Shown here: piece by piece, positions 1,465 to 46,191 of the stretch
How positions within the stretch are numbered: the first letter of the stretch is position 1
Layout: each line of letters opens with the position of its first letter
Source of the DNA: a virus
IMG/VR virus record: IMGVR_UViG_3300030101_001156
Location: 1 to 46,355 of that record
DNA length: 46,355 nucleotides
Strand: one strand, 5' to 3'
The notes under the pieces: model-generated
Seen by the model: only the letters and a program-made list of their open reading frames with translations
Told to the model about the DNA's origin: nothing
Databases searched by the model: none
Made by a program: the position numbers and the translations under genes

Positions 1465-3851
1465 GACAAGAACACTCTATACACTTTCCTTCACAGGCGG
1501 TTAGCGACATGGAGAAGCTAAGTGAAGATTATGGTTTAAAAGTAGCGAGAGCTATAAGACATGAATGGTTTTCAGGAACTACATCTAAATATAATAGTCA
1601 TAAACATAATTTTCATAATCTTAGACTGTACGCTAGAGGCGAGCAATCAATACAAAAATATAAAAATGAACTATCTATTAATGGTGATTTATCTTATCTT
1701 AATTTAGACTGGAAGCCTGTGCCAGTTATTCCAAAATTTGTAGATATAGTAGTTAATGGTATGGCTCAAAGAAACTACGAAATAAATTGCTTTTCTCAAG
1801 ATGAATTTGGCGTTCAAAAAAGAACTGAATATATGGAGTCTATATTACGAGACATAGAAGCTAAAAAGTTTAATGATATAGCAATGGAGCAGTTTGGCGT
1901 TGATTTATATGAAAACGACAAAGAAAAAATACCTCAAGATCAAGATGAGTTAAAATTACACATGCAACTTGACTTTAAACAAGCTGTAGAGCTAGCTGAA
2001 GAACAAGCATTAAGCGTTTTATTAGAAAACAGTGATTATGATTTAATTAGACGTAGAGTACTTTACGATTTAACTGTACTAGGTATTGGTGCAACAAAAA
2101 CAACATTTGATTTTAGCGCTGGAGCTAGAGCACAATATGTAGATCCAGCTGACTTAGTTTATTCACACACTGAGTCACCGTATTTTGAAGACGTTTATTA
2201 TATAGGTGAAGTAAAAGAATTACCTATAAATGAATTAGTAAAAGAATTTCCAGAGCTATCAGAAGATGAAATAAAAGACTTAGTAGATAAATACGCATAT
2301 CCGCTAGACTACGTAACAAACAGGGATAAAAATAAAGTTCAAGTTTTATATTTTAACTATAAAACCCATATGAACAATGTTTATAAATTAAAAAAGACTG
2401 GTACTGGTGCTCAAAAAATAATTGAAAAAGACGATTCATTTAATCCACCTGAAGATAAAACTGGTGATTTTGAAAAATTAGAAAGAGTTGTAGAAACATT
2501 ATATGAAGGAGTTTATATTATTGGTGCTGATGCATTATTAAAATGGAGAATGTGTCCTAACATGATGAGAACTGACTCTGACTTTAGTAAAGTTAAAATG
2601 AACTACCAAATGGTAGCGCCAAGAATATATGAAGGTAGAATAGAATCTATTGTTAGTAGAATAACAACTTTTGCCGACATGATACAGTTAACTCATTTAA
2701 AGTTGCAACAAGTCATGGCTCGTATGGTGCCTGATGGTGTTTACTTAGATGCTGATGGTTTAGCTGAAATAGATTTAGGTAATGGAACAAACTATAATCC
2801 ACAAGAAGCTTTAAACATGTTTTTTCAAACTGGTAGCGTTATTGGTAGAAGTTTTACGTCAGAAGGAGATATGAACCCAGGTAAAGTACCTATACAGCAA
2901 ATAAGTAATGGTGTAAATGGTGGTAAATTACAAAGTTTAATATCTACATACAACTACTACATGCAGATGATCCGTGACGTAACTGGTTTAAACGAAGCTA
3001 GAGATGGTAGTACTCCAGACAAAAACGCTTTGGTAGGCGTACAAAAGTTAGCAGCGGCTAATTCTAATACTGCTACTAGACACATACTACAGTCTATGTT
3101 ATTTATAACAGCTGAAGTTGCTGAGTGTTTGTCTCTACGTATATCTGATATAATAGAATACTCACCAACTAAAGATGCTTTCATAAGAGCTCTAGGTTCT
3201 CATAACGTAGCAACGTTAGATGAAATGAAAAACTTACATTTATACGACTTTGGTATATTTATAGAACTAATGCCAGATGAAGAAGATAAAGCTAGATTAG
3301 AAAATAATATACAAGCAGCATTAAATCAAGGTACTATTGATTTAGATGATGCTATAGATTTACGTAATGTTAGAAATGTAAAATTAGCTAATCAACTTTT
3401 AAAAATGAAAAGAAAAGCTAAAGCTGCTAGAGATGCTAAAACACAACAAGCTAATATGGCAGCTCAAGCACAAGCTAATGCTCAACAACAGCAAGCAGCA
3501 GCTCAAGCAGAAATAACTAAAGCAAACGCTAAAACTGATGCAGAGGCTAAATTAGAAGAAACAAGAAACCAATTAAAAATTAATTATTTACAACAAGAGG
3601 TTGCTTCTAAAAAACAATTAATGCAATTTGAGTTTGATTTAAATGCTAAATTAGAACAAATGCGAAGTGGATCAGATAATGTTAAAGAAAATAAAAGAGA
3701 AGATAGAAAAGACGCAAGAGTTGACAGGCAGGCTAAACATCAAATGAATATGATAGAACAAAGAAAGCAGGGTGATTCTGTTAATAAATTTGAATCATCA
3801 GGTAATGATATACTTAGTGGAGGTGCAAACATGGAAAAGTTTGGCCTCTAA
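1461..3851 (+). CDS. Portal protein
   Basis: A 796-residue protein directly after terL, overlapping it by 4 bases, in the position and size range of portal proteins of large podovirus-like phages. Portals form the dodecameric ring at the capsid vertex through which DNA passes. The N-terminal 450 residues have the mixed alpha/beta pattern of portals (RLYARGEQSI, WKPVPVIPKFVDIVVNGMA, then DPADLVYSHTESPYFEDVYYIGEV). A helix-rich middle (RDVTGLNEARDGSTP, near residue 510) fits the stem and wing. The last 150 residues are a Lys/Gln/Ala-rich coiled coil (near 655-760) that would make the barrel and could project into the capsid. No catalytic motif is expected. The call rests on position, length and fold pattern. 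Confidence 0.82.
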   Translation: MRQEHSIHFPSQAVSDMEKLSEDYGLKVARAIRHEWFSGTTSKYNSHKHNFHNLRLYARGEQSIQKYKNELSINGDLSYLNLDWKPVPVIPKFVDIVVNGMAQRNYEINCFSQDEFGVQKRTEYMESILRDIEAKKFNDIAMEQFGVDLYENDKEKIPQDQDELKLHMQLDFKQAVELAEEQALSVLLENSDYDLIRRRVLYDLTVLGIGATKTTFDFSAGARAQYVDPADLVYSHTESPYFEDVYYIGEVKELPINELVKEFPELSEDEIKDLVDKYAYPLDYVTNRDKNKVQVLYFNYKTHMNNVYKLKKTGTGAQKIIEKDDSFNPPEDKTGDFEKLERVVETLYEGVYIIGADALLKWRMCPNMMRTDSDFSKVKMNYQMVAPRIYEGRIESIVSRITTFADMIQLTHLKLQQVMARMVPDGVYLDADGLAEIDLGNGTNYNPQEALNMFFQTGSVIGRSFTSEGDMNPGKVPIQQISNGVNGGKLQSLISTYNYYMQMIRDVTGLNEARDGSTPDKNALVGVQKLAAANSNTATRHILQSMLFITAEVAECLSLRISDIIEYSPTKDAFIRALGSHNVATLDEMKNLHLYDFGIFIELMPDEEDKARLENNIQAALNQGTIDLDDAIDLRNVRNVKLANQLLKMKRKAKAARDAKTQQANMAAQAQANAQQQQAAAQAEITKANAKTDAEAKLEETRNQLKINYLQQEVASKKQLMQFEFDLNAKLEQMRSGSDNVKENKREDRKDARVDRQAKHQMNMIEQRKQGDSVNKFESSGNDILSGGANMEKFGL

Positions 3852-21896: not shown

Positions 21897-24800
21897 ATGA
21901 ATAAAAGATATAAATTCACCATGGATGGTGTGGTAAAATATAGAAACGTTGCTCCTGGTAAGGAGGACGCTTTCTTTGAAAAGTATGGGCAATACAATCC
22001 TGTACTAGTAACAGAAAATCCAACTACAAAATCTTTCATGTCCACTCCTAAATCAGAACTAACTGAAGATGATTTAGTTAAAATAGAAGAGTGGGTTAGC
22101 TCATTAAAAACACAAGAGCCGGGAAAGGATATAGGGGTGGAACAACCCCAAACTCAAGAGACGGATCTGTCTCAAGAAGATCAGCAAAAAATAGAAGGGA
22201 ATACGGAATTAGATTTGGTAAAATCTTCTTCGGAATTACTATCGAACACAGTAGATAATAAATTTGGAATTGGAGGGTTTGGTTCTTTAGTAAATAATTT
22301 AGATATAGATTCTGTAAAAACAAATAATATAAACGCTTTACAAAAAGATTTATTTTCAAATTATAGAGAATTAGAAAAAGATATACTTATAAAAGATAGT
22401 TTAATTTTTGAGCAATATAAAAATAATGACTTGCCAATTGATAAATATGGAAAGTATGAAAAAGATTTATTTGCTGATACAAATGAAGATCTTAACAATT
22501 TGTATAACGAAGACAAACAGTTAATAGATTTTAATAATATAAATTTAGGTGAGTACAAATTTAAATCTGAAGAAGAATACGATAGATTTATGCGAAATAG
22601 ATCTATTAATAATAAAAATATAATTAAAGGTAAAACAATTGACTATGGGTACGAAGGACCATATTCAATTAATCACATGTCTATTTATGATATAAACAAA
22701 GACGGTGTAGTGACAAAAGCTGAAGAAACAGAGTATAATAGAAGGCAACAGTTTAACAGGGAGCGTAATAATAAAATATCTAAATATTATGAAGAGTTAG
22801 AAAAAGGCCCAAACAAGTTGCAACAAATTGGTGATAATTGGGATTCAATTGTTAACAATTATAAAGAGCTTGATGAAACAGAATCAGAGTTAGTTGAAAG
22901 CATCGGAAAAAAAGACAAAGCGGTTATTTTTTATAACGGAGCCACAGATACTTATCATTGGGTTAAAAGTCACGCTCAATCAGGCTTTTATGAATATTGG
23001 AAAAATAAAGATGAAGCTAATCACCATCCAAATGACAAGTGGTTTACTAGTGACATATATTATAAAAAAAGTGGTAGCGGTGAAATTTTAGGTAACGGAA
23101 ATTTTCGTGTGCATGGAGGAATCGTTTACCCTAAAGATATTTATACAGGAAAAGGAGTTGTTGCTGGCGACGACTATAGTAATATTTCTTTTATTATTCA
23201 GCAAAATGAAAAAGTACAAAAATCTCTTTCTGTTGGTAATTGGAAAGAAGGTTTAAATACTGGTCAAATAAGCTACGAGTTAGAAAGAATGAATAATTAT
23301 ACTTATTTTAATTCTTCGTATATAATGGATCGAGATATTGATGAAGAGCGTTATAATTCTGAAACTTTTAGAATTAGCGCAGACGAATATATAGAAATAA
23401 ATACTAAACTTTATAATGAAAACGCGAAAATATATGAAGAGCAAGTAACGCCTATTATAGATGAGTATATTAATAACTACTATAGTGAGCCAGAGTATAT
23501 AGAAAAAGTAAATAATATAGTAAAAGAAATAACGCCACAAATACTTGAGCAATTAAAACCAGAATTTGGCGAAGTAATTCAATTAGAAGATGGTACTATA
23601 ACAACTCAAGAAATAACAAATAAATTTAAAGAGCAAGCAGAAGAGTTGCACGCTGTTTATTCGGGTTTAGTTTTAACGTTACCAACCGATGCTGATGGTT
23701 ATCCTACTGAAGCTAGTATAAAAAAATTACAAAAAGAATACAACAAAGAATTAAGCGAATTATTTGAGGGTTTACACGCTGATATATTTACTGAGTATAA
23801 TAATAATATAACTAAATCTTTAGAAAATAATCCTTATATAATAGAGCGACAAGCTACTTTGCAAAAAGAGTTAGAATTAGAATCAGAAAAATTGTGGCAA
23901 GAATTTCTTAAAAATAATAATCAAGGTTATAGTTTGTGGGAGATTAGTAAATTAGAAGAAATAGCTAATCAACTTGACAAAGCTGGGTTCGCGAGAATGG
24001 ATAACTTGCAAATGCAAGATAGATTTTTAATGTTAGAATACTATTTAAAAGGGGCGTTAAAACAAGCTGAAAGAGAAAACCCTGACAAGTTTGCGGACCC
24101 TCAAATTAGAGCAAGATATATAGAAGAATACTACGATTATTTTTACGATAAGCTAGCCGTCATGGCTACGCGACATGATGAGCACATACAGAATAATGAT
24201 TTTTGGATTAAACTACAAGCTCAAGAAATGAATTTAGACGCTGAGTTTGGTTATAACCGTGTTTACGAAGACAGGTTTGGAAACGAACAGATGAAAGGTG
24301 TTACAGTTTATTATCCTAAAGATAAAGGTAATAAGTACAACACGGGCCAACTTTATGCAGATGGAACTAGTAATCAACCTACTGTTATATACGAAAGTAA
24401 TATTATGTATTACTTATATTCCGACTCAGACTTTTGGAAAAAAGAAAGAAACAAATACCCAAACGATCCAATCAAGCAATATGAATATGCCGCTGAAAAA
24501 TACGGTGTTACTGAAACTTCTACAGCCTGGGCAAAACAAGTTGTTCAAGATGGTGGTAGATACTATAGAATGGTAACTAGTAAATCTGGTAAATGGCATG
24601 AAATAGAAGGTGGTTTTGATCCAAGTAAAAATTTAGAGATAGCTACAGAATTGTTAGGCAGAAGATGGGTTAGAGGAACCGGCAACAATGATAGCTTTAT
24701 AAGTCAAAAAAAATTAATAAAAGAAATGTCTATTGGCATATTAGAAGCTCCAACTTCTTTATCGGACTTAGGTGATAGTAGACTAGGAAGATTTTGGAAC

Positions 24801-27800
24801 GGTTTTACTAGCGGTCCAGGTCATGAGTGGATGCCATTTTTTGGTTGGGTACCAGAGGCTAAAAGAAAAGATAAAATAAAACAAATAGTTGATAAAGATC
24901 CTAGCGAAAGAACAGAGTTAGAAGATCAAATACTAACAATATACGGAATGAAACAGCAGGTAGATCAGCAAGTTAGTGAACTATCTTCTTGGTACAATGG
25001 TGGTAGAATAGCTAAAAAATCTGTACCATTTGTTCTAGAGTTTATTGGAACCGGTGGTGTAGGTAAAATGGTATCAACTGGTATTAAGACTAGTATAAAG
25101 AAAAGCGTAACAGCAAAGCTTGCTAATATAACTGTAGATAAAACTGGTAAACTAGTTTTAAGCAATGGTATGAAGTTGTCTACCGGATATAAAATGACTG
25201 ATAAGGCTATTGATTTCACAGCCTTTGTTATGGGTGTTAACGCTAGGGCTAGCACGGGTGGGTTGGGCCATACTATAAACAATACTGTAGGTAGAATGAC
25301 AGACGAGGTGATTTGGACATTAAGTACTGATCAAGATGGATTAATACAAGGCATAGATGCTATTACCGCCTCTGATCCACAAGGTATTGAGTTAGGTCTT
25401 AAAAAAGGCGAAGCATTTACTGAGGCTTTTTCTAGATCATATGGTATGACATTTGGTGAATACATGACTGAATCTATAGGGTTTTTATTACCTGGTATGG
25501 GAAGAAGTATGCTTAATATACCAGGTATAGTTAAGAAAGGTGGCACTAGATATGGTGATGTAATTTTTGATAGCGATGTATATAAAAGGCTTACGCTAGC
25601 TCATTTTATGAGAGAAAAAGGTTTTACAACTACAGCAGAAGTTACAGAGTGGATGGGCAAAAACGCTGGTTGGCACGGTGTGTTTGGGGAATTAGGTGAA
25701 GAATATATTAATATACCTTGGCAAAACTTAATGGAAGGACACGGCACTCCATTGCTAGCGGGTTTTCTTGAATATGATATAAATGGTAATGCAATTGGCA
25801 TGGACTGGGATTCTCAGCAAGAAATGTGGATAGGTATTGGTAGTATGGCGTTTGCTTTTAGCGGTACTGGTTTGGCTGTTAGTAAAGTAACTGGGGCTCA
25901 AGGTAAATACTATGAGGTTAGTCTTAATAAAAAAACAGCATTAAGGTTTAATTCAAAAAAAGCTCTTGATAGATATTTAAAAAGATTAGAAAGCGATGGA
26001 TTTTTTAATAATCCTAATAATCAAATACACTTAAAAACATATAACGACTATGCGGCCGCCGATGAATATAGAACTTTACTTGAAACGTATCGTTTAGCTG
26101 AATCATCAATGGCTGAGATAGATATACTAGAAGATGGTGGTAAGTTAAATGAAAATCAAAAGGGAGAGTTATTAACTATAAATAATAGGCTAGATGAACT
26201 TAATAGAAAAAGGTTTTTAACTGAAGCTGAAACTCTTGAGAAAAAAGAATTAGAATCTAGAAAAATAGAGTTAACTGGTGGTATAGAATTAAGACATACT
26301 ATTGAGGCTGATGGCACTAATAAGTTAACTACTGGCAAAACTATAGTAGCTAATGAAATAGATATATTATCTGTAGACGAAAAAGATGGTGGTCTTAACG
26401 AAGAGCAAAGATCAGAATTACTTTCTATTAATGATGAGTTAACTAAATTAAATAGCAAAAGAGGTAAACTAACAGAAGCTGAATTAAAAAGAAAGCGAGA
26501 ATTAGAAGTTGAGAAAAAGAAACTTATAGGTAATATTGAGAAAAAAATATTAGAAAGAAAAAGTAAAAGAGCTTACAACGAGCAGGTTAAAAAAGTAAAA
26601 GCTATTATAGAAAAGCAGGGGCTTACTGGTAAAATACAGATTACAGAAGAAAAAGGAGATAAAGAAACTAGGCAAAGCTTGTTAGAGTTATTTGGGTTAA
26701 CTGAAGAAAACGGAAAGTTCTTTGACATGCAAGGTAATGAAGTTACAAACATCGGCGTTAAGAAAGATAAAGATGGCAAAACAATAGATGAAGGACAGAG
26801 TATAGAAGATATATTTAAAGAACTACAAACAACGCATGGTTATTTTATACCAGCAGACATGTTAGGTAAAGGAGAGAAGAGCCACATAATAATAAACATG
26901 AGCGCTTCTTTTAAAAATCGTGGAGAAAATGTCGCGGCTCATGAATTTTTTCATTGGTACTTAAGTCAAGCGTTATCTAATACACCTGAATTAAAAATAG
27001 CATTAGGTGAATCGTTTAAAAGTTACTTAATGTCTATTGATCCCAAAGGTATTAGAGATAGTCAATTTAGACAAAGACTTGAAAACTATATAAATGAAGA
27101 CGCGGCCACTCAGTCTGAAGAAGCTATGGCCTTGTTCTTAGACGCTATAGCTAGTGGGGAACTTGCTTATAAAGAATCTTTAATGCAAAAGATAGGTACT
27201 ATTATAAAGCATTTGTTTAGAAGCATAGGTGTTGATATAACGTTAAATACTGGTAAAGATGTTTATGATTTTATAAAAGACTTTAATGATAGTATGCAGC
27301 GTGGTGATTTGTCAGCTAGTTTAATGAAGGCTTTAGAAAATAAAATAAAAGCTGGTGATCAAATGATAGAGCTTTCTAATAAAGTAAAGAAGTTTCAAAA
27401 AGAACAAAAAGAAGCTTTTGAGAAAAAGTTCAAAGAAGATCTTACTTTTAAATTTATACAAGCAGGTGTTGACGTAGACGACAAGACTATTGAAATGATA
27501 TTGAAAGCTTTTACAGACAATCCTACTAATAATGTTAAAAAATCTAAAACAGGTGGGTGGTCTACTGGAACTGAGATAGATCCAGTTGAAGTTAACGAGC
27601 AAGTTTATCAAGAGATTTTAAATAATGCTAAGAAGAATAATATACCTAATGATAAACTAAAAGACGCTGTAACACAAAGGATGCGTGATAAACTATTTGT
27701 AGCAAACATGGCTGCTGCTAATAAATATGCTGCTCAAGCTTACGCTAAAGGTAAGGCTGCTTTAAAAGGAACTGATTTTGTGGCAGCTACATTAGAAGAT

Positions 27801-30800
27801 TTACAGCAAGAGTTTTATGTAGAGCTAGTATTACTAACACAAAGATGGAACCCTAGCACAGGCGTTCCATTTGGTGCTTATGTTCAAATGCCAAAAGGTT
27901 TGCCTATAAAATATGGACAAGTATTAAATAGAGCTTTACAAAAAACAGGTTTAGTAACTCAATCACAAGCGGCACTTGAAGAAGCTGGCTATCAATTTAC
28001 TGACAACTCTACAGGTAGTACTAATAGTATATTACAAGAAGAGCAAGATAATAAGATATTAGTTAGAGATCAAATACTTAATTTACCAGATAATGTAATA
28101 GCTAATATAGAATCTGCTATTAAAAAGGCTAATATAAAATTAAAGAAAAAAGACGGTAGCGCTATATCGTATAAAGAAATAAAGCAAGAAGTTATAAAAG
28201 GAAAACTAAACGGTGTATTAGCAGATGTTGGTAACGCCTTTGGTATACCTACACAAAAGCTAGTTAAAAAATCTGATTTAAATAACGAACAAAGAACTAA
28301 TGCTAGAAATAAAATAGTAGAGTTAGCTAAGAATAATAATTTAATTGATTTGCTACCAGAAGCGCAAGACCAAAATGCTACATCGACAGAGATAGTAAGA
28401 ACTAAGTTTGGACAGTTTTATGAAAAGATAGCTGATAGAGCTTCCACAGCTGGAAAACAAACTGTTGGTGGTCAAAAAATATTTGCTAAAAGAACAGGTG
28501 GTCAAAAAGCTTTATATGCTAAAATGGATCAAGTTCCTAATCAAGATATATTAGATATATTCGGTATTAATCAAGATGGTTCTTTTCAAAGTGGAACAAG
28601 ATATGATGGTGCTATAAGAGAGTTTGCTATTCAATTAGCTACCGCTGCTGCTAATCAAGAGTTAAGATTAGATGCTGCTAGAAAAGGTGTTGATAAGAAA
28701 ACAATTGAAGATGTTGCTAGTGGTAAGTCTAGAATACTATTTGCTAAGAGTGCTAATGAATCTTTTGAGCAAGTTGATAATACAGAATCTTTAGTAGAAA
28801 GCAAACAAGGTAATAACGTACTAGCTCCTTTCGAATTAGACTTAGTTAAAAATGATGCTTTATTAAAAGGTAAGAATTTACGACCAATGCTGAGAATAAA
28901 GAAGGTAGAAGACGTAAAACCTTGGATAGACGAGCTTATAAAAATAGGATTTTTTAAAGCGTTTCCTATAGAATTTTTCTTTAATACAACCGCGAAAAAT
29001 GACTTACAACAAACACACCCTTATTCTATAAAATACAATACTACAAAAACGAATGCATCTATATTTACATCTAGCTCACAAAATTTAGGACTAAGTTCTA
29101 GCAGTGAAGCTTGGAAAGAGTTCCGCCTTCAAATACAAGAACTGTACGAGAACAATAAAGATAACAAAAATTTTTGGGGCAAGCCGTTTAAAGGTGTGGA
29201 TATGGGTAAAATGTTTTCACTTAGAGGTTCTTATGATAGCTTTTTTACTGTTAACAAAAGAATAACATTACCAAACGGCAAAAAGAAAACAATAAAAGTA
29301 TACAGCCCTAAAAAAGCTAGAGAAAGTAAAAAACAAATAGAATATTTTAATGATCAAGTTGGTAAAATTCACAAGCAGATGTGGATGCGTATACTTAATA
29401 TAGTAAAAAGTAATAGAAATAATGCAACTGGTATATCTATGTTTTTATCTTTTGTTGGTAATGATACCCAGCACTGGCATAAGCTTGGCGCTCAAATAGA
29501 AGGGTTTTCTACAAATATAAAAGGTAAAAGAGTAGAGTACGAGCATGCTATGCCGGCAACAAAAGCTTATTTGTATTTATTAAATGCGGCACTTGGTGAG
29601 GATATAAACTTTGAAGCGGCTTATAACTTTTTAATACAGAACTTTAAATTAATAGCCCTTGATAAATCTATGGACGATAAACTTCGTCTTGCTATAACAG
29701 AGGCTGGTTATAGTTTGCAGAAAGTAATGCCTGATAATTGGAGCGTTATTGATGGTAATTGGTGGGAAAGATATTTTAATACTATTGTTGAGGCTATAAA
29801 CGGAGGTATAGACCCTTCTACTATTGAAGACATTAACGGTGTTACGCTAGATGTTAAATATAATGTAAACGCTAGTGGTGGTATAATGAGGTCTAAAACT
29901 TCTTCTGATATAAAAACAACTAACAACTTAACTCAAGCTATTAGCAATAGAATAATGCAGAGCAAGACTGGTAAGACAAAAGGTATGTCAACATTTGATT
30001 TTGATGACACATTAGGTTTTACTAAGTCAGGTGTTAGAGTAACAATGCCTAATCCTGAAGGTACACCTAAACCAAAACGTAAAGTTATATTCTTAGCTGG
30101 TGGAGCTGGTAGTGGTAAAGGTAACGTAATTAATAAGCTAGGTCTAGAAGGTATGGGCTTTAAAATTGTAAACTCAGATATATCATTAGAGTGGTTAAAG
30201 AAAAACTCAGGACTACCTGCTGATATGCGAGACTTAACTAAAGAACAAAGAAGTACATTAGGTAAGTTAGGAGCTCAGGCTAGGAAAATAGCTAAACGTA
30301 AAATGATGAAGTACCAAGGTGAAGGTAACGGTGTTATTGTAGATGGTACTGGTGGTTCTGCAAAACAAATGCAAAAGCTCGTAGATGAGTTTCAAGCTAA
30401 AGGATATGATGTTAGTATGTTATTTGTAAATACTTCATTAGATGTAGCCTTAGAGCGTAATAGAGCTAGAAAAGAAAGATCATTGTTAGATGTCATAGTT
30501 AAACGTAATCACGAGGCTGTACAAAATAATAAGCCTACATTTAAAGAGATGTTTGGCAAAAGATTTATGGAGGTTAACACAGATAAGTTAACTCAAGAAA
30601 GCCCTATGCCAAAAACTCTTGTAAACAAGATGAACGACTTTGTTTCAGGTTATGAAAAGCGTAGAATAGATGCCACAGAGTTCGCGGAACAAGGAGCAGA
30701 GATATTAGAGCAAGGTGGCAAGTTTGACTTCTCAGAATTTAATGATGTAGTTGATGGAACTCCTGGGCCATTACTTGATAAGGCAAAAGAAAGAGCTGCT

Positions 30801-33407
30801 AAGTTTGGTACTAAAGACATGTTTGTTTTAACTGCTAGACCTCAAGCATCTGACAAAGCCATACATGAGTTTTTAAAATCACAAGGTTTAAATATACCTT
30901 TAAAAAATATAACCGGTTTAGCTAACAGTACTGGTGAAGCAAAAGCGAAATGGATGTTAGAAAAATTTGCTGAGGGTTATAATGATTTATATTTTGTAGA
31001 TGACGCTTTAGCTAATGTTGAAGCTGTAAGAGAAGTATTAGATCAACTAGATGTTAAATCTAAAGTTGTACAAGCTAGAGTTAAGTTTAGTAAAAATGCA
31101 AGCGTAGACTTTAATAAAATGCTTGAGCGTAAAAAAGGTATACCATTTGATGAGGTTATATCTGGACCTGAAGCTAAAAAAAGAGGTAGAGGCAAGGGTA
31201 GATGGGATTATTATATACCACCATCTGCAGAGGATTTTAAAGGTTTGTTATATTACTTTATAGGTAGAGGTAAACAAGGAGAAGAAGACTTAAAGTTTCT
31301 AGCAGAGTATCTTCTTAAACCATTTGCTAGGGGTATCAGAAGCTGGAACGCTTATAAACAAAGCATGGTTAACGATTTTAAAAATCTTAAGAAACGTTTT
31401 CCGAAAATAAAACTAAACAAAAAAATTAAAGGAACAGAGTTTACAAACGACACCGCTATTAGAGTTTATTTATGGGATAAGTCTGGGTTTGATATCGAAG
31501 GCTTGTCAGTTCAAAAACAAAAACAATTAGTAGACTATGTTAATAGTAATCCCGATATAAAGAAATTTGCTGACGCATTATCTATATTAAGTAAAAGAAA
31601 AGAAGGTTATTTACCACCTAGCGAAAATTGGATGATGGAAACTATACCTACTGATTTAAGAAATATAGTTGATAAAATAGGTAGAAAAGAATTTTTGCAA
31701 GAGTGGATTGAAAATAAAAACATAATATTAAGTAGACAAAACATAAATAAAATAGAAGCTGTTTATGGTTCTTGGTTTAGAGAAGCACTAGAAGATATAT
31801 TATTCCGTATGGAAAACGGTGGTAATAGAAAATCTGGTGGTAACAGAACTGTTAACTTCTTTACAGAGTGGATTAATGATTCTATTGGAGCTATCATGTT
31901 CTTTAATATGAGATCTGCTTTACTTCAAACTATATCTACAGTTAACTTTATAAATTGGGGTGATAACAATTTATTTAAAGCTGCTGGAGCTTTTGCTAAT
32001 CAACCTCAATTTTGGGCTGACTTTGTTATGTTGTTTAATTCTGATCAACTAAAACAAAGAAGAGGTGGTTTACAAACAGACGTATCAGCATCGGAACTAA
32101 CAAAATCGTTTGCTGAAAATGGTTATAGTCCTAGAACTTTATTAAGAGCCTTGCTACAGTTTGGTTTTACACCAACACAAATTGCAGATAGTTTTGCTAT
32201 AGCTTTTGGTGGTGCTAGTTTTTATAGAAACAGATATAATACTTACATAAAAAAAGGTATGACACCCGAACAAGCTAACGAACAAGCAATGTTAGACTTC
32301 CAGGAAATAGCAGAAGAAACACAACAGTCCTCAAGAGAAGATTTAATATCACAACAACAAGCTACATTATTAGGTAGGTTTGTTTTAGCTTTTCAAAACG
32401 TTACAATGCAATATGGTAGATTAACTAAGAAAGCTTTATCAGATCTTGTTAACAATAGAGGTGATATAAAAACTAATGTATCTAAAATACTTTACTATGG
32501 CCTTGTTCAAAACATTGTGTTCTCAGCTTTACAATCAGCGTTAGCATTTATAATGTGGGGAGATGATGAAGAAGAAATAAAAAATAAAACAGATAGAGTA
32601 GCTAACAACGTTTTAGATTCATTTTTAAGAGGTACGGGTTTATATGGAGCGTTAGTATCTACACTTAAAAACACAGTTATACAATGGAACCAACAACAAA
32701 AAGCTGAATACGGTAAAACAAGGGTTGAGAAAGTAGCGTTAGCAACACTTGATCTATCACCACCAATAGGTAGTAAAGTAAGAAAAATAGTAAACGCTTT
32801 TTATTCAGAGTACTACGATAAGGGCGTGTCTGATGAATTAGGGTTAAGAATTGAAAATCCTCAAGTTAGAAAGTGGGCTTACATAATTGAAGGCGCTACT
32901 AATATACCTTTAGCTAGATTAGTTAATAAAGCTAACAACTTAGAAGAAGCTGTAACAGGTAGTCATGAAACTTGGAAAAGAGTTATGATGGCTATGGGTT
33001 GGAGTATGTGGGAGCTTGGTGTTAAAGATGAAGAGCTTGAGGCCGCAAAAGAAACTGCTGAAACAAAAAGAGAAGAGAAAAGGAAAATAGAAAAAGAAAA
33101 AGAAAAAGAACAAAAGAAAAAAGAAAAAGAGTTAGAGAAAAAGAAAGAAGAACAAAGACTAAAAGATGAGGGTTACAAAAGCATTAGGTGCTCTGGTATA
33201 AAATCAAATGGAAAGAGATGTAGTATAATGTCACAACCTACTAAAGATAAAAAATTCTTATGTTATCACCACATGGCATTTACCGACGGCATGGATAGAG
33301 ATGGCGATGGTATTAAAGAATATAGATGTACTGGCATTAAAAAGAACGGTAAGAGATGTAAGAATAAAACAGAGAACGAGAATAAAAGATGTTATGCTCA
33401 CCAATAA
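21897..33407 (+). CDS. Giant multidomain ejection protein, 3836 residues
   Basis: Layout by residue: EF-hand loop D265-I-N-K-D-G to E276; long charged coiled coils (to ~900); hydrophobic Gly-rich region (~1030-1350) with FGELGEEYINIPWQNLMEG, a candidate channel segment; coiled coils (~1440-1570); zinc peptidase motif H1682-EFF-H1686 with possible third ligand E1741 or E1742; sigma-70 region 2-like segment (~1930-2010, DLQQEF at 1968); unknown domain (~2335-2620); HAD motif D2701-F-D2703-D-T; inserted P-loop kinase (GGAGSGKG 2735-2742); remaining HAD motifs T2979, K3016 or K3018, D3035-D3036; conserved helical domain with hydrophobic helices (~3300-3600); Lys/Glu coiled coil (~3690-3760); tandem Cys/His modules C3765-H3792 and C3811-H3835. 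It follows an internal virion gene, so ejection into the host with the DNA is likely. No RNA polymerase DxDGD motif was seen. Individual enzyme activities are inferences from motifs. Confidence 0.7.
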   Translation: MNKRYKFTMDGVVKYRNVAPGKEDAFFEKYGQYNPVLVTENPTTKSFMSTPKSELTEDDLVKIEEWVSSLKTQEPGKDIGVEQPQTQETDLSQEDQQKIEGNTELDLVKSSSELLSNTVDNKFGIGGFGSLVNNLDIDSVKTNNINALQKDLFSNYRELEKDILIKDSLIFEQYKNNDLPIDKYGKYEKDLFADTNEDLNNLYNEDKQLIDFNNINLGEYKFKSEEEYDRFMRNRSINNKNIIKGKTIDYGYEGPYSINHMSIYDINKDGVVTKAEETEYNRRQQFNRERNNKISKYYEELEKGPNKLQQIGDNWDSIVNNYKELDETESELVESIGKKDKAVIFYNGATDTYHWVKSHAQSGFYEYWKNKDEANHHPNDKWFTSDIYYKKSGSGEILGNGNFRVHGGIVYPKDIYTGKGVVAGDDYSNISFIIQQNEKVQKSLSVGNWKEGLNTGQISYELERMNNYTYFNSSYIMDRDIDEERYNSETFRISADEYIEINTKLYNENAKIYEEQVTPIIDEYINNYYSEPEYIEKVNNIVKEITPQILEQLKPEFGEVIQLEDGTITTQEITNKFKEQAEELHAVYSGLVLTLPTDADGYPTEASIKKLQKEYNKELSELFEGLHADIFTEYNNNITKSLENNPYIIERQATLQKELELESEKLWQEFLKNNNQGYSLWEISKLEEIANQLDKAGFARMDNLQMQDRFLMLEYYLKGALKQAERENPDKFADPQIRARYIEEYYDYFYDKLAVMATRHDEHIQNNDFWIKLQAQEMNLDAEFGYNRVYEDRFGNEQMKGVTVYYPKDKGNKYNTGQLYADGTSNQPTVIYESNIMYYLYSDSDFWKKERNKYPNDPIKQYEYAAEKYGVTETSTAWAKQVVQDGGRYYRMVTSKSGKWHEIEGGFDPSKNLEIATELLGRRWVRGTGNNDSFISQKKLIKEMSIGILEAPTSLSDLGDSRLGRFWNGFTSGPGHEWMPFFGWVPEAKRKDKIKQIVDKDPSERTELEDQILTIYGMKQQVDQQVSELSSWYNGGRIAKKSVPFVLEFIGTGGVGKMVSTGIKTSIKKSVTAKLANITVDKTGKLVLSNGMKLSTGYKMTDKAIDFTAFVMGVNARASTGGLGHTINNTVGRMTDEVIWTLSTDQDGLIQGIDAITASDPQGIELGLKKGEAFTEAFSRSYGMTFGEYMTESIGFLLPGMGRSMLNIPGIVKKGGTRYGDVIFDSDVYKRLTLAHFMREKGFTTTAEVTEWMGKNAGWHGVFGELGEEYINIPWQNLMEGHGTPLLAGFLEYDINGNAIGMDWDSQQEMWIGIGSMAFAFSGTGLAVSKVTGAQGKYYEVSLNKKTALRFNSKKALDRYLKRLESDGFFNNPNNQIHLKTYNDYAAADEYRTLLETYRLAESSMAEIDILEDGGKLNENQKGELLTINNRLDELNRKRFLTEAETLEKKELESRKIELTGGIELRHTIEADGTNKLTTGKTIVANEIDILSVDEKDGGLNEEQRSELLSINDELTKLNSKRGKLTEAELKRKRELEVEKKKLIGNIEKKILERKSKRAYNEQVKKVKAIIEKQGLTGKIQITEEKGDKETRQSLLELFGLTEENGKFFDMQGNEVTNIGVKKDKDGKTIDEGQSIEDIFKELQTTHGYFIPADMLGKGEKSHIIINMSASFKNRGENVAAHEFFHWYLSQALSNTPELKIALGESFKSYLMSIDPKGIRDSQFRQRLENYINEDAATQSEEAMALFLDAIASGELAYKESLMQKIGTIIKHLFRSIGVDITLNTGKDVYDFIKDFNDSMQRGDLSASLMKALENKIKAGDQMIELSNKVKKFQKEQKEAFEKKFKEDLTFKFIQAGVDVDDKTIEMILKAFTDNPTNNVKKSKTGGWSTGTEIDPVEVNEQVYQEILNNAKKNNIPNDKLKDAVTQRMRDKLFVANMAAANKYAAQAYAKGKAALKGTDFVAATLEDLQQEFYVELVLLTQRWNPSTGVPFGAYVQMPKGLPIKYGQVLNRALQKTGLVTQSQAALEEAGYQFTDNSTGSTNSILQEEQDNKILVRDQILNLPDNVIANIESAIKKANIKLKKKDGSAISYKEIKQEVIKGKLNGVLADVGNAFGIPTQKLVKKSDLNNEQRTNARNKIVELAKNNNLIDLLPEAQDQNATSTEIVRTKFGQFYEKIADRASTAGKQTVGGQKIFAKRTGGQKALYAKMDQVPNQDILDIFGINQDGSFQSGTRYDGAIREFAIQLATAAANQELRLDAARKGVDKKTIEDVASGKSRILFAKSANESFEQVDNTESLVESKQGNNVLAPFELDLVKNDALLKGKNLRPMLRIKKVEDVKPWIDELIKIGFFKAFPIEFFFNTTAKNDLQQTHPYSIKYNTTKTNASIFTSSSQNLGLSSSSEAWKEFRLQIQELYENNKDNKNFWGKPFKGVDMGKMFSLRGSYDSFFTVNKRITLPNGKKKTIKVYSPKKARESKKQIEYFNDQVGKIHKQMWMRILNIVKSNRNNATGISMFLSFVGNDTQHWHKLGAQIEGFSTNIKGKRVEYEHAMPATKAYLYLLNAALGEDINFEAAYNFLIQNFKLIALDKSMDDKLRLAITEAGYSLQKVMPDNWSVIDGNWWERYFNTIVEAINGGIDPSTIEDINGVTLDVKYNVNASGGIMRSKTSSDIKTTNNLTQAISNRIMQSKTGKTKGMSTFDFDDTLGFTKSGVRVTMPNPEGTPKPKRKVIFLAGGAGSGKGNVINKLGLEGMGFKIVNSDISLEWLKKNSGLPADMRDLTKEQRSTLGKLGAQARKIAKRKMMKYQGEGNGVIVDGTGGSAKQMQKLVDEFQAKGYDVSMLFVNTSLDVALERNRARKERSLLDVIVKRNHEAVQNNKPTFKEMFGKRFMEVNTDKLTQESPMPKTLVNKMNDFVSGYEKRRIDATEFAEQGAEILEQGGKFDFSEFNDVVDGTPGPLLDKAKERAAKFGTKDMFVLTARPQASDKAIHEFLKSQGLNIPLKNITGLANSTGEAKAKWMLEKFAEGYNDLYFVDDALANVEAVREVLDQLDVKSKVVQARVKFSKNASVDFNKMLERKKGIPFDEVISGPEAKKRGRGKGRWDYYIPPSAEDFKGLLYYFIGRGKQGEEDLKFLAEYLLKPFARGIRSWNAYKQSMVNDFKNLKKRFPKIKLNKKIKGTEFTNDTAIRVYLWDKSGFDIEGLSVQKQKQLVDYVNSNPDIKKFADALSILSKRKEGYLPPSENWMMETIPTDLRNIVDKIGRKEFLQEWIENKNIILSRQNINKIEAVYGSWFREALEDILFRMENGGNRKSGGNRTVNFFTEWINDSIGAIMFFNMRSALLQTISTVNFINWGDNNLFKAAGAFANQPQFWADFVMLFNSDQLKQRRGGLQTDVSASELTKSFAENGYSPRTLLRALLQFGFTPTQIADSFAIAFGGASFYRNRYNTYIKKGMTPEQANEQAMLDFQEIAEETQQSSREDLISQQQATLLGRFVLAFQNVTMQYGRLTKKALSDLVNNRGDIKTNVSKILYYGLVQNIVFSALQSALAFIMWGDDEEEIKNKTDRVANNVLDSFLRGTGLYGALVSTLKNTVIQWNQQQKAEYGKTRVEKVALATLDLSPPIGSKVRKIVNAFYSEYYDKGVSDELGLRIENPQVRKWAYIIEGATNIPLARLVNKANNLEEAVTGSHETWKRVMMAMGWSMWELGVKDEELEAAKETAETKREEKRKIEKEKEKEQKKKEKELEKKKEEQRLKDEGYKSIRCSGIKSNGKRCSIMSQPTKDKKFLCYHHMAFTDGMDRDGDGIKEYRCTGIKKNGKRCKNKTENENKRCYAHQ

Positions 33408-41680: not shown

Positions 41681-43546
41681 TTAATTAATTTCACAGTTAC
41701 CACCAGCACAAGCTAACTCGCCTGATAGATCTGTGTTATCATCAGTTTCTATTATTTTTGTTAAATCAACGTCAGATAATACCTTGGACATCTTATTGTA
41801 TTCAGCTTCGTTAATGTCCTCAAACGGAGCTTGCGTGTATGTACCACCATCATATGGTAATACTGATAACCCATTATAATAATCTCTATTACTCCACATC
41901 CACTCACCTGCTTTTTCCCACTCATCTTCTTTCAAAGATATCGTAGCTGATACATTGTGAGTATTACTACCACGTCTGTGACCAGGCTTAATCCACTCTT
42001 GAGCAACACGTTTAACTCTTTCAAGAGTATCAAACGGTGATTCAGTTCTAAGTATTGATTTAGTCGGAGCCTTTTGCGGTACAGATATAACCGCTGTATC
42101 GTGTGGTCTGAAGTATTCATCTTCAATTAATTCTGGATGTGACTTAGATAAATATTTATATATAGCCTCGTTTTTTCCTACGCGCATTCTACGTACATAA
42201 TAATCATTATGCCATGCATGAATACCCGAAGACGTTCCGAGGACCAGAGATGTCGTCCCTGCAGGTTTTACGGTTGTACATCTAGCTGATGTCTTTATTC
42301 CTATGATCTTTGCTACTCTCGCGTTTTCTTTTGTTACGATATTTGCAGCTTCCTTCATATCCATTTGGAGCACAGCGGCACTCCCTATTCCTGTCATTGA
42401 CACACCTATAAGAGCGTCTTTCTCTGTTGTCTCTTTCCATATTTCTCTAAGATAATGGAAGTCGGTGTATGCGGCTTGTAATGTTCCAATAAACGCTGCT
42501 GCCTTAACTCTGTTATTAAAATCTTCTTGATCTTCTATATCAGAGACATTTACTTCACATAAATTACAAAACTGAAACGGCCTTAGCGCTATCTCACAAC
42601 AAGGATTAGTTCCCCAGTCTTTGTCGTTATTAAGATATATACCAGGCTCGCCAGCCCCTGACAACTCAACTCTTTTCCATAAGTCCATAAAAAACTCTTT
42701 TGTTACTTTATGTCTCATTAAAACAGCCGAGTTATTAGCTCTACCTCTTTGTGGATTAGTTTCCCACCAATGACCTGACTTACAACCTATCATTTCATTA
42801 TCGCTAGCAGTAAACAAACTGATTAACGCAGCTCGTCTAATACCACCAGCTAATACAGCATCAGCTATATGGCATATGATATCGTGTACTTCAAGTGAAG
42901 TTAAAGCATCACCGTCTTCTTTTGATTGAAGTATACCTTCAACCTTAATTAAACATTCTTTTAATGGCTGTGGACCAGGTGCTTTACCACCTGATGTCAC
43001 TAGCCTAGCACCCTTTGGTCTGATACAAGTGTAATCAAAGTTTATCTTAGAGGCTTTCTTGCCACCAAGATAAGACTTGATTAATACTTTAACAGCATCA
43101 GACCAGCCTTCAATTGAATCGCCTATAACAAATCTCTTAGATCTTTTCATATAAGGTTTTGTTATTACAGGTAAGTCTTTAATGTGGTGCTGTTGAACCG
43201 AATAACCGACCCCACATCCTGAAAGTAATAGAAACATTATTTCATTAAAAGCTTCAATATCATCTACAGGTAAGTATGAACAGTTATATAATCTGTTAGG
43301 ACTTACTTGTATTGGTTTACCAGCAAATTGTAAACTACGCATTGACGGTAAAATCTTTTTATCAAATACATAGGTGTACGCATTTAATATATCGCTTTTT
43401 AATTGTGGGTAATTCTTGATATGCATCTCCAAATTTCTAGTAACTAGTTCGTCCCAAGTTTCTCTACGATTTAACTCAGGCATATATCTAGCGTACTTCA
43501 TATGTACTGTGATATCAGAAAGTATGTTTCTATTAATGTCTTTCAT
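41681..43546 (-). CDS. nrdJ: Class II (adenosylcobalamin-dependent) ribonucleoside-triphosphate reductase
   Basis: A 621-residue monomeric RTPR-type enzyme that reduces NTPs to dNTPs using adenosylcobalamin and a thiyl radical. Active-site residues are visible: N314-P-C316-C-E318 (radical Cys with flanking Asn and Glu), C89 and C327 (redox pair; C316 to C327 spacing of 11 equals C408 to C419 of the Lactobacillus leichmannii enzyme), and the C-terminal relay C613-AGGN-C618 (spacing as C731-C736). Other family segments include SGGKAPGPQPLKECL, LAGGIRRAALISL and TVKPAGTTSLVLGTSSGIHAWHNDYYV. It is shorter than the ~740-residue bacterial form. No glutaredoxin gene is in this operon, so reducing power would come from host thioredoxin. 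It needs cobalamin from the host. Confidence 0.92.
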   Translation of the reverse strand: MKDINRNILSDITVHMKYARYMPELNRRETWDELVTRNLEMHIKNYPQLKSDILNAYTYVFDKKILPSMRSLQFAGKPIQVSPNRLYNCSYLPVDDIEAFNEIMFLLLSGCGVGYSVQQHHIKDLPVITKPYMKRSKRFVIGDSIEGWSDAVKVLIKSYLGGKKASKINFDYTCIRPKGARLVTSGGKAPGPQPLKECLIKVEGILQSKEDGDALTSLEVHDIICHIADAVLAGGIRRAALISLFTASDNEMIGCKSGHWWETNPQRGRANNSAVLMRHKVTKEFFMDLWKRVELSGAGEPGIYLNNDKDWGTNPCCEIALRPFQFCNLCEVNVSDIEDQEDFNNRVKAAAFIGTLQAAYTDFHYLREIWKETTEKDALIGVSMTGIGSAAVLQMDMKEAANIVTKENARVAKIIGIKTSARCTTVKPAGTTSLVLGTSSGIHAWHNDYYVRRMRVGKNEAIYKYLSKSHPELIEDEYFRPHDTAVISVPQKAPTKSILRTESPFDTLERVKRVAQEWIKPGHRRGSNTHNVSATISLKEDEWEKAGEWMWSNRDYYNGLSVLPYDGGTYTQAPFEDINEAEYNKMSKVLSDVDLTKIIETDDNTDLSGELACAGGNCEIN

Positions 43547-43549
43547 TTA

Positions 43550-43687
43550 TTATTTTCTTTTTATTGTAGTTAAACAAAAATCTACGAATGGTAGATATAC
43601 TACGTGGTTATTTCTATTTCTTTCTCTGTATGTTCTCATACCAATAAGAACGCCGGGATAAAATCCCATACTAAATTCCCAATCCAT
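43550..43687 (-). CDS. Small conserved-looking protein, 45 residues
   Basis: A short frame filling the gap between the nuclease and reductase genes exactly, with a 1-base gap on one side and 3 on the other. It reads MDWEFSMGFYPGVLIGMRTY, RERNRNNHVVYLPFVDF and ends CLTTIKRK. The mixed hydrophobic/aromatic pattern with GFYPGVLIGMRTY and YLPFVDF suggests a small folded protein rather than random sequence. No function is recognised. Its place between reductase and nuclease in a tightly packed operon supports that it is expressed. Confidence 0.6.
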   Translation of the reverse strand: MDWEFSMGFYPGVLIGMRTYRERNRNNHVVYLPFVDFCLTTIKRK

Positions 43688-43688
43688 A

Positions 43689-44132
43689 TTATTTAATTTT
43701 AGTTATTAATTCTATTACATTGTCACACTCTTTTTGGTTCTGAGGTTTATATAGAGTTACATGCGGATAACATCTGTTAATAAATTTCTTGAACAACTTC
43801 CATCTTATTGGAAAACTTTCGTTCGCTCTACCCTTGCACTCAATTATAAACCCATTACCTATAAAATCAGGAGTGTATTTTATTGGTAAGATTTTTTTAT
43901 TTCCTCTGTTTTTAAATTCACCTTTACCGTTAGATTGCCTTTCGTAACTTGGTGTTTCAAAATCAAACCCGTCTATCAAAGTATATGTCTGTCCTTCATA
44001 CTCAGCTTTTATCTTAGCTTTCTTAAGAGCTTGATACATATACTTCTCTAGACCAGAGGCGAAGGTTATACCGTCACATATAACCTTCTTTGCCCTAACA
44101 GGTCCCCGTTTTTTATTCTTCCGATATCTCAT
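43689..44132 (-). CDS. PD-(D/E)xK endonuclease
   Basis: A 147-residue nuclease with the motif set E29 (GITFASGLEKYMY), D89 (KYTPDFIGNG) and E98-C-K100 (FIIECKGRANESFPIRWKLF). The acidic/lysine arrangement defines the PD-(D/E)xK core, and the FASGLE helix is typical of small phage resolvase or Holliday-junction-like nucleases. The basic N-terminus (MRYRKNKKRGPVRAKK) may bind DNA. It overlaps the previous gene by 20 bases, so its start at 44132 is inside that gene's end, a tight coupling. Likely roles are branch resolution or DNA degradation of the host chromosome to supply nucleotides, consistent with the operon. Confidence 0.72.
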   Translation of the reverse strand: MRYRKNKKRGPVRAKKVICDGITFASGLEKYMYQALKKAKIKAEYEGQTYTLIDGFDFETPSYERQSNGKGEFKNRGNKKILPIKYTPDFIGNGFIIECKGRANESFPIRWKLFKKFINRCYPHVTLYKPQNQKECDNVIELITKIK

Positions 44133-44394
44133 CTAAAATATCTTTAAGTTCCTCTTGTGCGGTTTGTATATATAAAATCGCATCCATAAGTTCCTCTTGA
44201 ATATCAACTAGGTATTTCATTAGACCTTTCATTTTTGTTGTTCGCTCTTCGTGAAGAGTCGTGCCGTATTTTCTATAACCTTCATTAGATCTGTCTCTAA
44301 ATTTTTGTACTACACGTTTTACAACAGGATCTCTAAATTCAACTTCCATATTTTTTAAAAACCCTTTAGCATTCATTATTTCTCTATCGCTCAT
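44113..44394 (-). CDS. Small helical protein, possibly MazG-like
   Basis: A 93-residue, all-helical protein: KRVVQKFRDRSNEGYRKYGT, TLHEERTTKMKGLMKYLVDI, then QEELMDAILYIQTAQEELKD. The pattern SNxGYxKYGTTL followed by QEELMDAILYIQ recalls the all-alpha NTP pyrophosphatase (MazG-type) helices with an EExxD acidic cluster, but a full ExxE plus ExxD set is not evident. It sits 1 base after the GIY-YIG/MazG fusion gene. Either a small NTP-handling protein or an accessory to it. Confidence 0.45.
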   Translation of the reverse strand: MSDREIMNAKGFLKNMEVEFRDPVVKRVVQKFRDRSNEGYRKYGTTLHEERTTKMKGLMKYLVDIQEELMDAILYIQTAQEELKDILDEISEE

Positions 44395-44395
44395 A

Positions 44396-45205
44396 TTAAT
44401 TATTTTTTACAAATGTTCCATTAATCATTTTACCTTTACGTTTAGCTATAGTATCATAAGCTGATTCAATACATTCTTCAATTGTTAAACCACTCAGTTC
44501 AGCTAAGTTAGTTAGTACAACAACCATATCACCAATACCGTCTTGTATTTCTAATGTATCATCTTTTAGTATAGCTCTACCAACTTCGCCAGCTTCTTCC
44601 ATTAATTTAACGTATTGAGTCTTCTGATCACCTTCATCATATATACCTCTGTGTTCAGCCCATTCTCTAATTAAATCAAAATGACTAGCTTGGCAACAGT
44701 CTTCTGGCTCAGCGCATTTTTCTCTAATTTTTCTGCAGCGATCATAAAATTTAGTTAATGCTTTATTGTATACATAGCATCTATTATCATTATACATAGA
44801 CGTTTTTGCATTAGTAACTATCCAATCAACTAAATCTTCATCTAACATAACGCTGCCTTCAACTGTATCCCAACTCATCTCAAGGTTGTCCATAAGATTA
44901 CCTTTCAATTTATTAATAGGACAAGGAAACGTAGTAGTTTGTTCTGTTACGTTTATATTCATAGTCTTTAAATTATTAAAATTATTATTATTAAGTTTAT
45001 TATAAGGAATACGGTCAATTCTATAACCATATTCTTCTTGAAGTTGTAGTTCTCTTTTAGATATATAATCTATATCGTTAGATTTTTCTAAAACTTCGTA
45101 TTCACCTGGCTCATAACCTTGTTGTTCAGTAACTCTATTATATAAGTCAGTTGTACAACCTATTTTTTTACCAGGTATGTGGTATAATATATATTCTTTA
45201 CTCAT
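44396..45205 (-). CDS. GIY-YIG-like domain fused to MazG-like NTP pyrophosphohydrolase
   Basis: A 269-residue two-domain protein. The N-terminal ~80 residues start SKEYILYHIPGKKIGCTTDL then YNRVTEQQG, with the IGCTTDLxxRV and downstream Glu that mark the GIY-YIG endonuclease superfold. The C-terminal ~110 residues (~155-269) are MazG-like: KLMEEAGEVGRAILKDDTL with E203/E204-E207 and E219, D222, D226, the all-alpha NTP-pyrophosphatase metal ligands, followed by the helix TIEECIESAYDTIAKRKGKM. A linker in between contains Cys residues (RKIREKCAEPEDCCQASH). The phosphatase part would clean unwanted NTPs from the phage dNTP pool. The GIY-YIG part is weaker. Start overlaps the TS-like gene by 8 bases. 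Confidence 0.65.
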   Translation of the reverse strand: MSKEYILYHIPGKKIGCTTDLYNRVTEQQGYEPGEYEVLEKSNDIDYISKRELQLQEEYGYRIDRIPYNKLNNNNFNNLKTMNINVTEQTTTFPCPINKLKGNLMDNLEMSWDTVEGSVMLDEDLVDWIVTNAKTSMYNDNRCYVYNKALTKFYDRCRKIREKCAEPEDCCQASHFDLIREWAEHRGIYDEGDQKTQYVKLMEEAGEVGRAILKDDTLEIQDGIGDMVVVLTNLAELSGLTIEECIESAYDTIAKRKGKMINGTFVKNN

Positions 45206-45851
45206 TTATTTTTTCTATTATATTATTATACAAATGTAAGTTATGTGCAAAGTGGTAATACTCACCTAGTCTTATTTCTAGTTTATCAGCAACCATTAAT
45301 TGCAGTTTTGAAAAACAATATTGGTCATTGCAGAAACCGTACCAGAGATCGTTAGAACGCATTGTAACACACATATTAAGTTTATTATTTAATATTGTAA
45401 ACTGTATAGCATATGTACAAGGAGTATCTTTATCATACTTTTCACGTTCTTTACCATCGAATATAGATATTGTAGCCTGCCTAGTATTAGGGTTTTTCTT
45501 TAACATATCGACTACCATATCTAATTGATAATGTCTTTGCCATTGATAACCGTAATTAGAGTTAACATAACCTTCTTCATTAGCCATGCGTTCCCATATT
45601 TCAGGTACTTTACCATATATCTTACCTAGCATTTTAACGTTTGGTAATCCAGTTAAATACCATTGCCACTCAGACTCAGCATAATTATATTTCCATTTAC
45701 GTTGGTCGCACTTAATCCAGTTGTCCATAGGGTTTACTATTGTAAAACCTACATTAAATAAAGCCTTAGTATTATCAAAGTCAACACCATAATCTAGTAT
45801 CTGTTTTTTATAATAACTAAATGCTTTGTCTGCGTTTTTAAATCTATTCAT
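45198..45851 (-). CDS. Thymidylate synthase-family protein with dCMP-type Asp
   Basis: A 217-residue protein of the ThyA fold: ESEWQWYLTG with catalytic Glu at 61 (TS E58 position), GYVNSNYGYQWQRH with Y100, TRQATISIFD (phosphate Arg kept, second Arg is Gln), the nucleophile C145 (TPCTYAIQF; the usual His after Cys is Thr), RSND 165-168, D176 in the slot of TS Asn177, and HLY 206-208. Asn177 reads uracil; in T4 dCMP hydroxymethylase it is Asp. The enzyme may thus hydroxymethylate or methylate deoxycytidylate or another pyrimidine nucleotide rather than dUMP. It is the central gene of an overlapping nucleotide operon. Confidence 0.75.
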   Translation of the reverse strand: MNRFKNADKAFSYYKKQILDYGVDFDNTKALFNVGFTIVNPMDNWIKCDQRKWKYNYAESEWQWYLTGLPNVKMLGKIYGKVPEIWERMANEEGYVNSNYGYQWQRHYQLDMVVDMLKKNPNTRQATISIFDGKEREKYDKDTPCTYAIQFTILNNKLNMCVTMRSNDLWYGFCNDQYCFSKLQLMVADKLEIRLGEYYHFAHNLHLYNNIIEKINE

Positions 45852-46191
45852 AACTTACTTTATTAATTGAACCTCTCCATATTTTTGAAGCTCTTTCTAT
45901 TTTTTCTGCTTTTACTTTCATTACATCTTTGTTAGTGCAGTACTTATTAAAATAATATTCAGAGTATTTATATACTTGTTCCATAACATCTTTTTTATCG
46001 TACACTTTAGGGTCTCTATTGTATTTATTATTTATTGTTATACCTATCCTCCACTCGTGTATACCGTTTTTATAATGATACTCTGGTCGTATATCTATAC
46101 CATTGTCTTCGCACCAAAAACATTTTACCAAATCACCACCTTGCCTAGTATGATGAGGGTAGTTTGTATTATCATTATCTAACTCTCCCAT
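45844..46191 (-). CDS. Hypothetical protein with CFWCE motif, 115 residues
   Basis: Starts MGELDNDNTNYPHHTRQGGD, then KCFWCEDNGIDIRPEYHYKN: a single CxxC-like motif with nearby His that might bind a metal. The remainder is mixed alpha/beta (GIHEWRIGITINNKYNRD; DKKDVMEQVYKYSEYYFNKY) and ends in a basic helix. It overlaps the TS-like gene by 8 bases and the previous, partial gene by 13 bases, so it is part of the operon. No function recognised. Confidence 0.5.
   Translation of the reverse strand: MGELDNDNTNYPHHTRQGGDLVKCFWCEDNGIDIRPEYHYKNGIHEWRIGITINNKYNRDPKVYDKKDVMEQVYKYSEYYFNKYCTNKDVMKVKAEKIERASKIWRGSINKVSYE

Follow-up and report, generated by a model that had tools for sequence, protein, structure and literature searches.

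A P-loop kinase is nested in the flap hairpin of a predicted HAD phosphatase within a giant protein of uncultured phages

The window analysed here comprises 46,355 nucleotides of IMG/VR virus record IMGVR_UViG_3300030101_001156, which is 47,431 bases long. A single open reading frame on the plus strand (21897..33407) encodes a giant protein of 3836 amino acids carrying both a kinase and a HAD phosphatase. In the window, the giant gene stands last in the structural module, 3' of the portal gene and of a phrog_14478 virion protein gene and 5' of an endolysin match; in MW202828 and similar relatives a giant gene likewise closes the structural block. Since the portal matches podoviruses of Flavobacterium, Cellulophaga, Tenacibaculum and Maribacter, the host is likely a member of the Bacteroidota; an unassigned spring-water podovirus is also matched, at 49% identity. 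The nested kinase/HAD is shared by a family of phages that have not been cultured and are represented by contigs of environmental viruses. The position of the giant gene is compatible, by analogy, with an ejected protein such as the N4 vRNAP (PMC12633501), and from gene position only we infer that the giant protein travels with the virion. Elsewhere in the window, the minus strand (41681-46191) encodes a nucleotide metabolism cluster comprising a class II-like ribonucleotide reductase, an endonuclease, a MazG-like pyrophosphatase and a thymidylate synthase.

The giant resembles the polyvalent proteins in being large and multi-domain and in having its gene beside structural genes, and zeta-like kinases are among the domains of that group (Iyer et al. 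2017, PMC5512222, in the part consulted). It differs in that no HAD/kinase nesting appears among the domains given in that part of the source, and a Pfam search of the giant found none of the usual polyvalent marker domains. Three other stretches of the giant stand out. An HEFFH sequence (residues 1681-1691; window 26937-26969) resembles a zinc metallopeptidase motif and has no Pfam match; the region around it (~1642-1852) is shared at 23-31% identity with related giants whose HAD lacks the kinase, referred to below as empty giants. Residues 1960-2007 (window 27774-27917) look by eye like sigma-70 region 2 (DLQQEFYVELVLLTQRWNPSTGVPFGAYV), without Pfam support in a regional scan that covered part of the stretch. 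The C-terminus carries two C-x-GIK-x-NGKRC...C repeats (window 33189-33272 and 33327-33404) that are likely zinc-binding and weakly match DUF5763 (Pfam, E 0.44).

The nested region is made up of three parts, all on the plus strand. The N-terminal piece of the HAD (29985..30080) consists of strand 1 with motif I (D2701-F-D-D-T), found in every copy, and the first strand of a flap hairpin (~2712-2718); the two strands occupy residues 8-13 and 24-30 of an AlphaFold2 model. The inserted P-loop kinase follows (~2729-2927; 30081..30677), identified by its absence from empty relatives, by Pfam and by its fold. Its motifs are a Walker A loop (2735-2742), NxD (D2761), DGTG (2816-2819) and an RNxxRxxR lid (2854-2861). 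The 3' boundary of the insert is approximate and overlaps the returning flap strand (2919-2925), with which the C-terminal piece of the HAD begins (30651..31094). This piece, recognized by identity to the empty giants, conservation and the alpha/beta order of the model, contains LTAR motif II (T2979, R2981), motif III (K3016) and motif IV (D3035-D3036). A preliminary description of this DNA had listed the same motifs, among them GGAGSGKG, NSDISLEWL and VIVDGTGG, and every one was recovered at its position. It had also offered K3018 as a HAD catalytic lysine, which has to be withdrawn: the position varies (Q/L/E/M/K), leaving K3016 as the sole motif III lysine.

Both catalytic centres are intact. 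In a set of 87 insert-bearing sequences that includes some same-contig duplicates under two locus identifiers, every copy covering the position retains the HAD residues D2701, D2703, T2705, T2979, R2981, K3016, D3035 and D3036 and the kinase residues K2741, D2761, D2816-G-T-G, R2854, N2855, R2858 and R2861. The HAD thus has the DxD, T/S, K and DD signatures of its superfamily in Rossmann-like alpha/beta order, and the kinase has the Walker A loop, conserved acidic strand-2 residue and arginine-rich lid of the PNK/zeta/AAA_33 group. Both domains are under purifying selection: among close pairs, mean dN/dS is about 0.19 in the kinase and 0.12 in the C-terminal piece of the HAD, rough values because of partial saturation at synonymous sites.

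Residues 2689-3066, searched against viral contigs, retrieved 47 loci, 37 of the long form with the kinase and 10 (L039-L048) in which the HAD lacks it. Two further searches of viral contigs used the short HAD (more than 460 relatives) and the kinase (481 relatives), and the best 80 of each were kept; the three locus sets overlap, some contigs occurring in more than one. Motifs I and II (LTAR) are separated by about 278 residues in insert-bearing copies versus about 78-79 in uninterrupted HADs, and the short spacing holds for 80/80 of the latter (the best 80 of more than 460). Of the best 80 of 481 kinase loci, 75 passed a stringent check that required Walker A to have HAD motif I upstream of it and motif II downstream. 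The five failures reflect altered motif letters or contig ends, and all 80 loci are either nested in the HAD site or cut by a contig end. By BLASTP, residues 2662-2728 and 2928-3835 of the window giant align with residues 1525-1592 and 1592-2492 of the empty giant at L040, so that 199 residues of the window protein (2729-2927) fall between two pieces that are contiguous in its relative. From about residue 2928 to the C-terminus, identity to empty giants is 44-50%. Pairwise alignment gave a median of 202 residues skipped in the window protein versus 3 in the empty protein, both pieces being found in 65 of 80 empty relatives. Natural empty sites, with 199-202 residues skipped between contiguous HAD pieces, bear out the earlier proposal that the kinase is nested in a HAD phosphatase.

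Judged from the contiguous empty homologues, the HAD core appears to be completed across the insert. Two unrelated, sequential domains, the arrangement that would contradict nesting, are ruled out by those homologues and by the spacing, and chance motif matches by the same evidence together with conservation. The interruption falls in the hairpin that reads 'VRYTKPDG-TTGTLT' in the short form, immediately after motif I, which we take to be the flap in which HADs carry C1 caps. Sequence comparison and modelling together place a complete predicted P-loop kinase in this flap hairpin, at the C1-cap position, in a giant of polyvalent type. Since the G+C content of the insert (0.353) is no different from that of its flanks, there is no sign of fresh import. 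One locus (L047, 6001-6375) encodes a HAD whose flap is different and kinase-free (FDETLIIDGENFVV) and whose C-terminal half is near the kinase-bearing form; a contig end cuts this HAD.

The structure prediction that had been suggested as a check gave a concordant picture. An AlphaFold2 model of the nested region from 41 sequences (mean pLDDT 87.8, pTM 0.77) places the kinase between two strands (model residues 24-30 and 231-237), and the order of strands and helices fits a HAD. The modelled flanking strands are consistent with a single hairpin in which the kinase takes the place of the turn. The top Foldseek match is the polynucleotide kinase of Clostridium thermocellum (CthPnkp; E 1.8e-7), with zeta toxin next. 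T4 PNKP aligned over 357 columns and both domains, in sequential order and with a large rmsd, as would be expected if the domains are arranged differently. In VIA-align, whose rows cover mainly model residues 36-231 and so test the kinase rather than the HAD, the Z scores are 16.6 for CthPnk (over 166 residues, the closest solved fold), 15.5 for O-phosphoseryl-tRNA kinase, 13.8 for adenylate kinase, 13.7 for zeta and 13.6 for T4 PNKP.

With both domains in place, the best single guess at their function, and a tentative one, is PNKP-like end healing, with a small-molecule reading following it closely. In the latter, a zeta-like or other kinase with a nucleotide, nucleoside or UDP-sugar as acceptor would join a nucleotide or sugar phosphatase in reworking a host metabolite or defence signal; this is only slightly less probable than end healing. 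The evidence on the kinase divides between the two. Its best Pfam match is Zeta_toxin (6.6e-11, followed by AAA_33 at 1.7e-10), and zeta leads the PDB profile search as well (30.3 bits, versus 25.4 for CthPnk and 24.4 for T4 PNK). The zeta alignment, however, takes in only the first 115 positions, so that membership of the zeta family is no better supported, and bacterial PNK stands above zeta in the fold ranking. The [DE]GTG motif of strand 3 is shared with the zeta toxin/PezT kinases, DGTG being nearer to zeta EGTG than to the DTN of T4 PNK; the lid, in contrast, differs from theirs and is PNK/PSTK-like. Against T4 PNKP, hhalign returned a probability of 95% over the kinase, and phrog_505, one of two PHROG families matched by T4 PNKP, is matched by the kinase in 44 of 44 members. 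By sequence comparison, then, the kinase lies between zeta and PNK.

The acceptor site is where the kinase departs from PNK. In T4 PNK, R38 (in NRDDYR) is the acceptor-binding arginine. The general base position is kept here (D2761, corresponding to T4 D35), whereas the position of R38 is leucine in all 86 copies that cover it, giving DxxL-E-W within N-x-D-I-S-L-E-W in place of DxxR. This invariant leucine lowers the standing of the kinase as a polynucleotide kinase and favours the small-molecule reading; the kinase may have an acceptor different from that of PNK, and it may nonetheless work like a polynucleotide kinase. Some relatives outside the family also fit a small-molecule acceptor. In Morganella phage vB_Mm5 (L228, 2441-3767), a kinase relative is followed after 2 nt by a deoxyribonucleotidase HAD gene, a pairing as separate genes, and in Pelagibacter phage HTVC008M (L050, 3953-6402) the kinase gene overlaps the following one, which at its start resembles a HIGH-type nucleotidyltransferase. 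The zeta-like kinases of polyvalent proteins are proposed by Iyer et al. 2017 (PMC5512222) to act on cell-wall precursors. In the Silviavirus SA11 'RNA ligase' (L226, 3016-5298), kinase, calcineurin-like phosphatase and ligase follow the bacterial Pnkp layout; unlike the nested kinase, this protein keeps the DxxR acceptor motif.

The full length of the short HAD matches phrog_415 (8.4e-5), a family annotated as polynucleotide kinase; the phosphatase half of T4 PNKP hits it too (3e-24). Since a control, the Morganella phage deoxyribonucleotidase, also matches phrog_415 (4e-4), the match is not specific to PNKP. In Pfam, the empty HADs match DUF2608 (48 of 49), HAD PF12710 (20 of 49, best 2.5e-4) and acid phosphatase B, which accords with a small-molecule substrate. 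A PDB profile search with the 49 empty HADs found no HAD and nothing relevant, and the empty-HAD profile did not align with the T4 phosphatase beyond motif I. These matches suggest that, apart from the insert, the HAD is a capless class III-like phosphatase. Since the HAD persists without the kinase in many relatives, it has a role of its own. The PNKP-like activities predicted by the preliminary description are no more than plausible: the kinase fold is nearest bacterial PNK and the two halves match both T4 PNKP families, but the acceptor arginine is gone, phrog_415 is unspecific and the HAD commonly occurs alone.

In the end-healing reading, the kinase and HAD would act as a bifunctional kinase-phosphatase, converting damaged ends (3'-phosphate, 5'-OH) to ligatable ones. 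An ATP-dependent DNA ligase (PF01068) is encoded by 11 of the 13 larger records that carry the insert and by 4 of the 8 empty ones, a difference too small for an association. PF09414 (RNA_ligase) matches occur in 3 of 22 records, all overlapping DNA ligase frames; searches of the larger related records turned up no dedicated RNA ligase separate from the DNA ligase, and no RtcB in 21 of them, the records being incomplete. PF09511 had no match in the related records, but neither did its control. If ends are the substrate, the common DNA ligase and the failure to find RtcB or an RNA ligase favour DNA ends over tRNA, and the healed ends would more likely be DNA ends destined for the phages' own ligase. 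A narrower form of the earlier suggestion, in which an ejected PNKP mends tRNA cut by host anticodon nucleases, is weakened accordingly; for all the precedent of T4 PNKP and the similarity in fold, it is now very improbable.

A third reading dispenses with cooperation altogether: the HAD flap would be a permissive site for a mobile kinase module, the two domains having independent roles in a polyvalent protein. Among the loci retrieved, empty HADs equal or outnumber filled ones, and kinase relatives stand outside any HAD in HTVC008M, Methylophilales phage Melnitz and Agrobacterium phage Atu_ph07. The insert state has to change three times on a tree of 149 HADs computed with the insert left out, and at least two of these changes are forced by well-supported branches; the insert-bearing HADs form a clade of 65, a clade of 5 and L208 alone. 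Either this flap received the kinase module at least twice, or some lineages lost it or exchanged it through recombination. Independence is nevertheless unlikely. The best 80 of 481 kinase loci all use this one site unless a contig end truncates them, the 65-member clade has stably kept its insert with both halves under purifying selection, and the insert occupies the C1-cap position. Where a C1 cap covers the active site of a HAD, it usually influences how substrates get in. The insert-bearing records yielded no second copy of the kinase, and the empty phage records none at all, all of these records being incomplete. Inspection of the kinase relatives of PSS2, Atu_ph07, HTVC008M and Melnitz showed that in none of them does a HAD surround the kinase.

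Returning to end healing, the nested enzyme would act early, since the giant would travel with the virion. A bolder version, which we regard as improbable, holds that the kinase is a working C1 cap and that a single two-site end-healing enzyme, injected with the phage DNA, repairs ends before phage gene expression. Were end healing true, phages would own two independent kinase-phosphatase repair architectures, one possibly delivered with the genome; were small-molecule action true, this would be an uncharacterised enzyme, widespread in phages, for takeover or counter-defence.

Compared with known systems, the arrangement is distinctive. T4 PNKP (PseT) likewise has one P-loop kinase and one HAD phosphatase per polypeptide, alignable in the core and the RNxxR lid, but its domains are sequential, kinase then HAD. 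Bacterial Pnkp partners its kinase with a calcineurin-type phosphatase and a ligase rather than a HAD. HAD enzymes with C1 caps share the insertion in the beta-hairpin right after motif I, but known C1 caps are small domains, helical or alpha/beta in type, rather than catalytically complete kinases; here a second catalytic domain occupies the cap position. In the PNK-HAD proteins described by a survey of jumbo phages (PMC7824862), the kinase precedes the HAD. The open-access literature searched contained no earlier account of a HAD with a kinase nested inside it, much relevant literature lying outside that scope; within it, the nesting is previously undescribed. The architecture itself is real and conserved. 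Hundreds of natural cases with and without the insert in viral contigs allow tests of the role of the cap kinase. Pieces of such phage giants (L217-L225) also occur in genome bins labelled Bacteroidetes, Maricaulis, Woesearchaeota and Ilumatobacteraceae; these pieces are probably mis-binned phage contigs.
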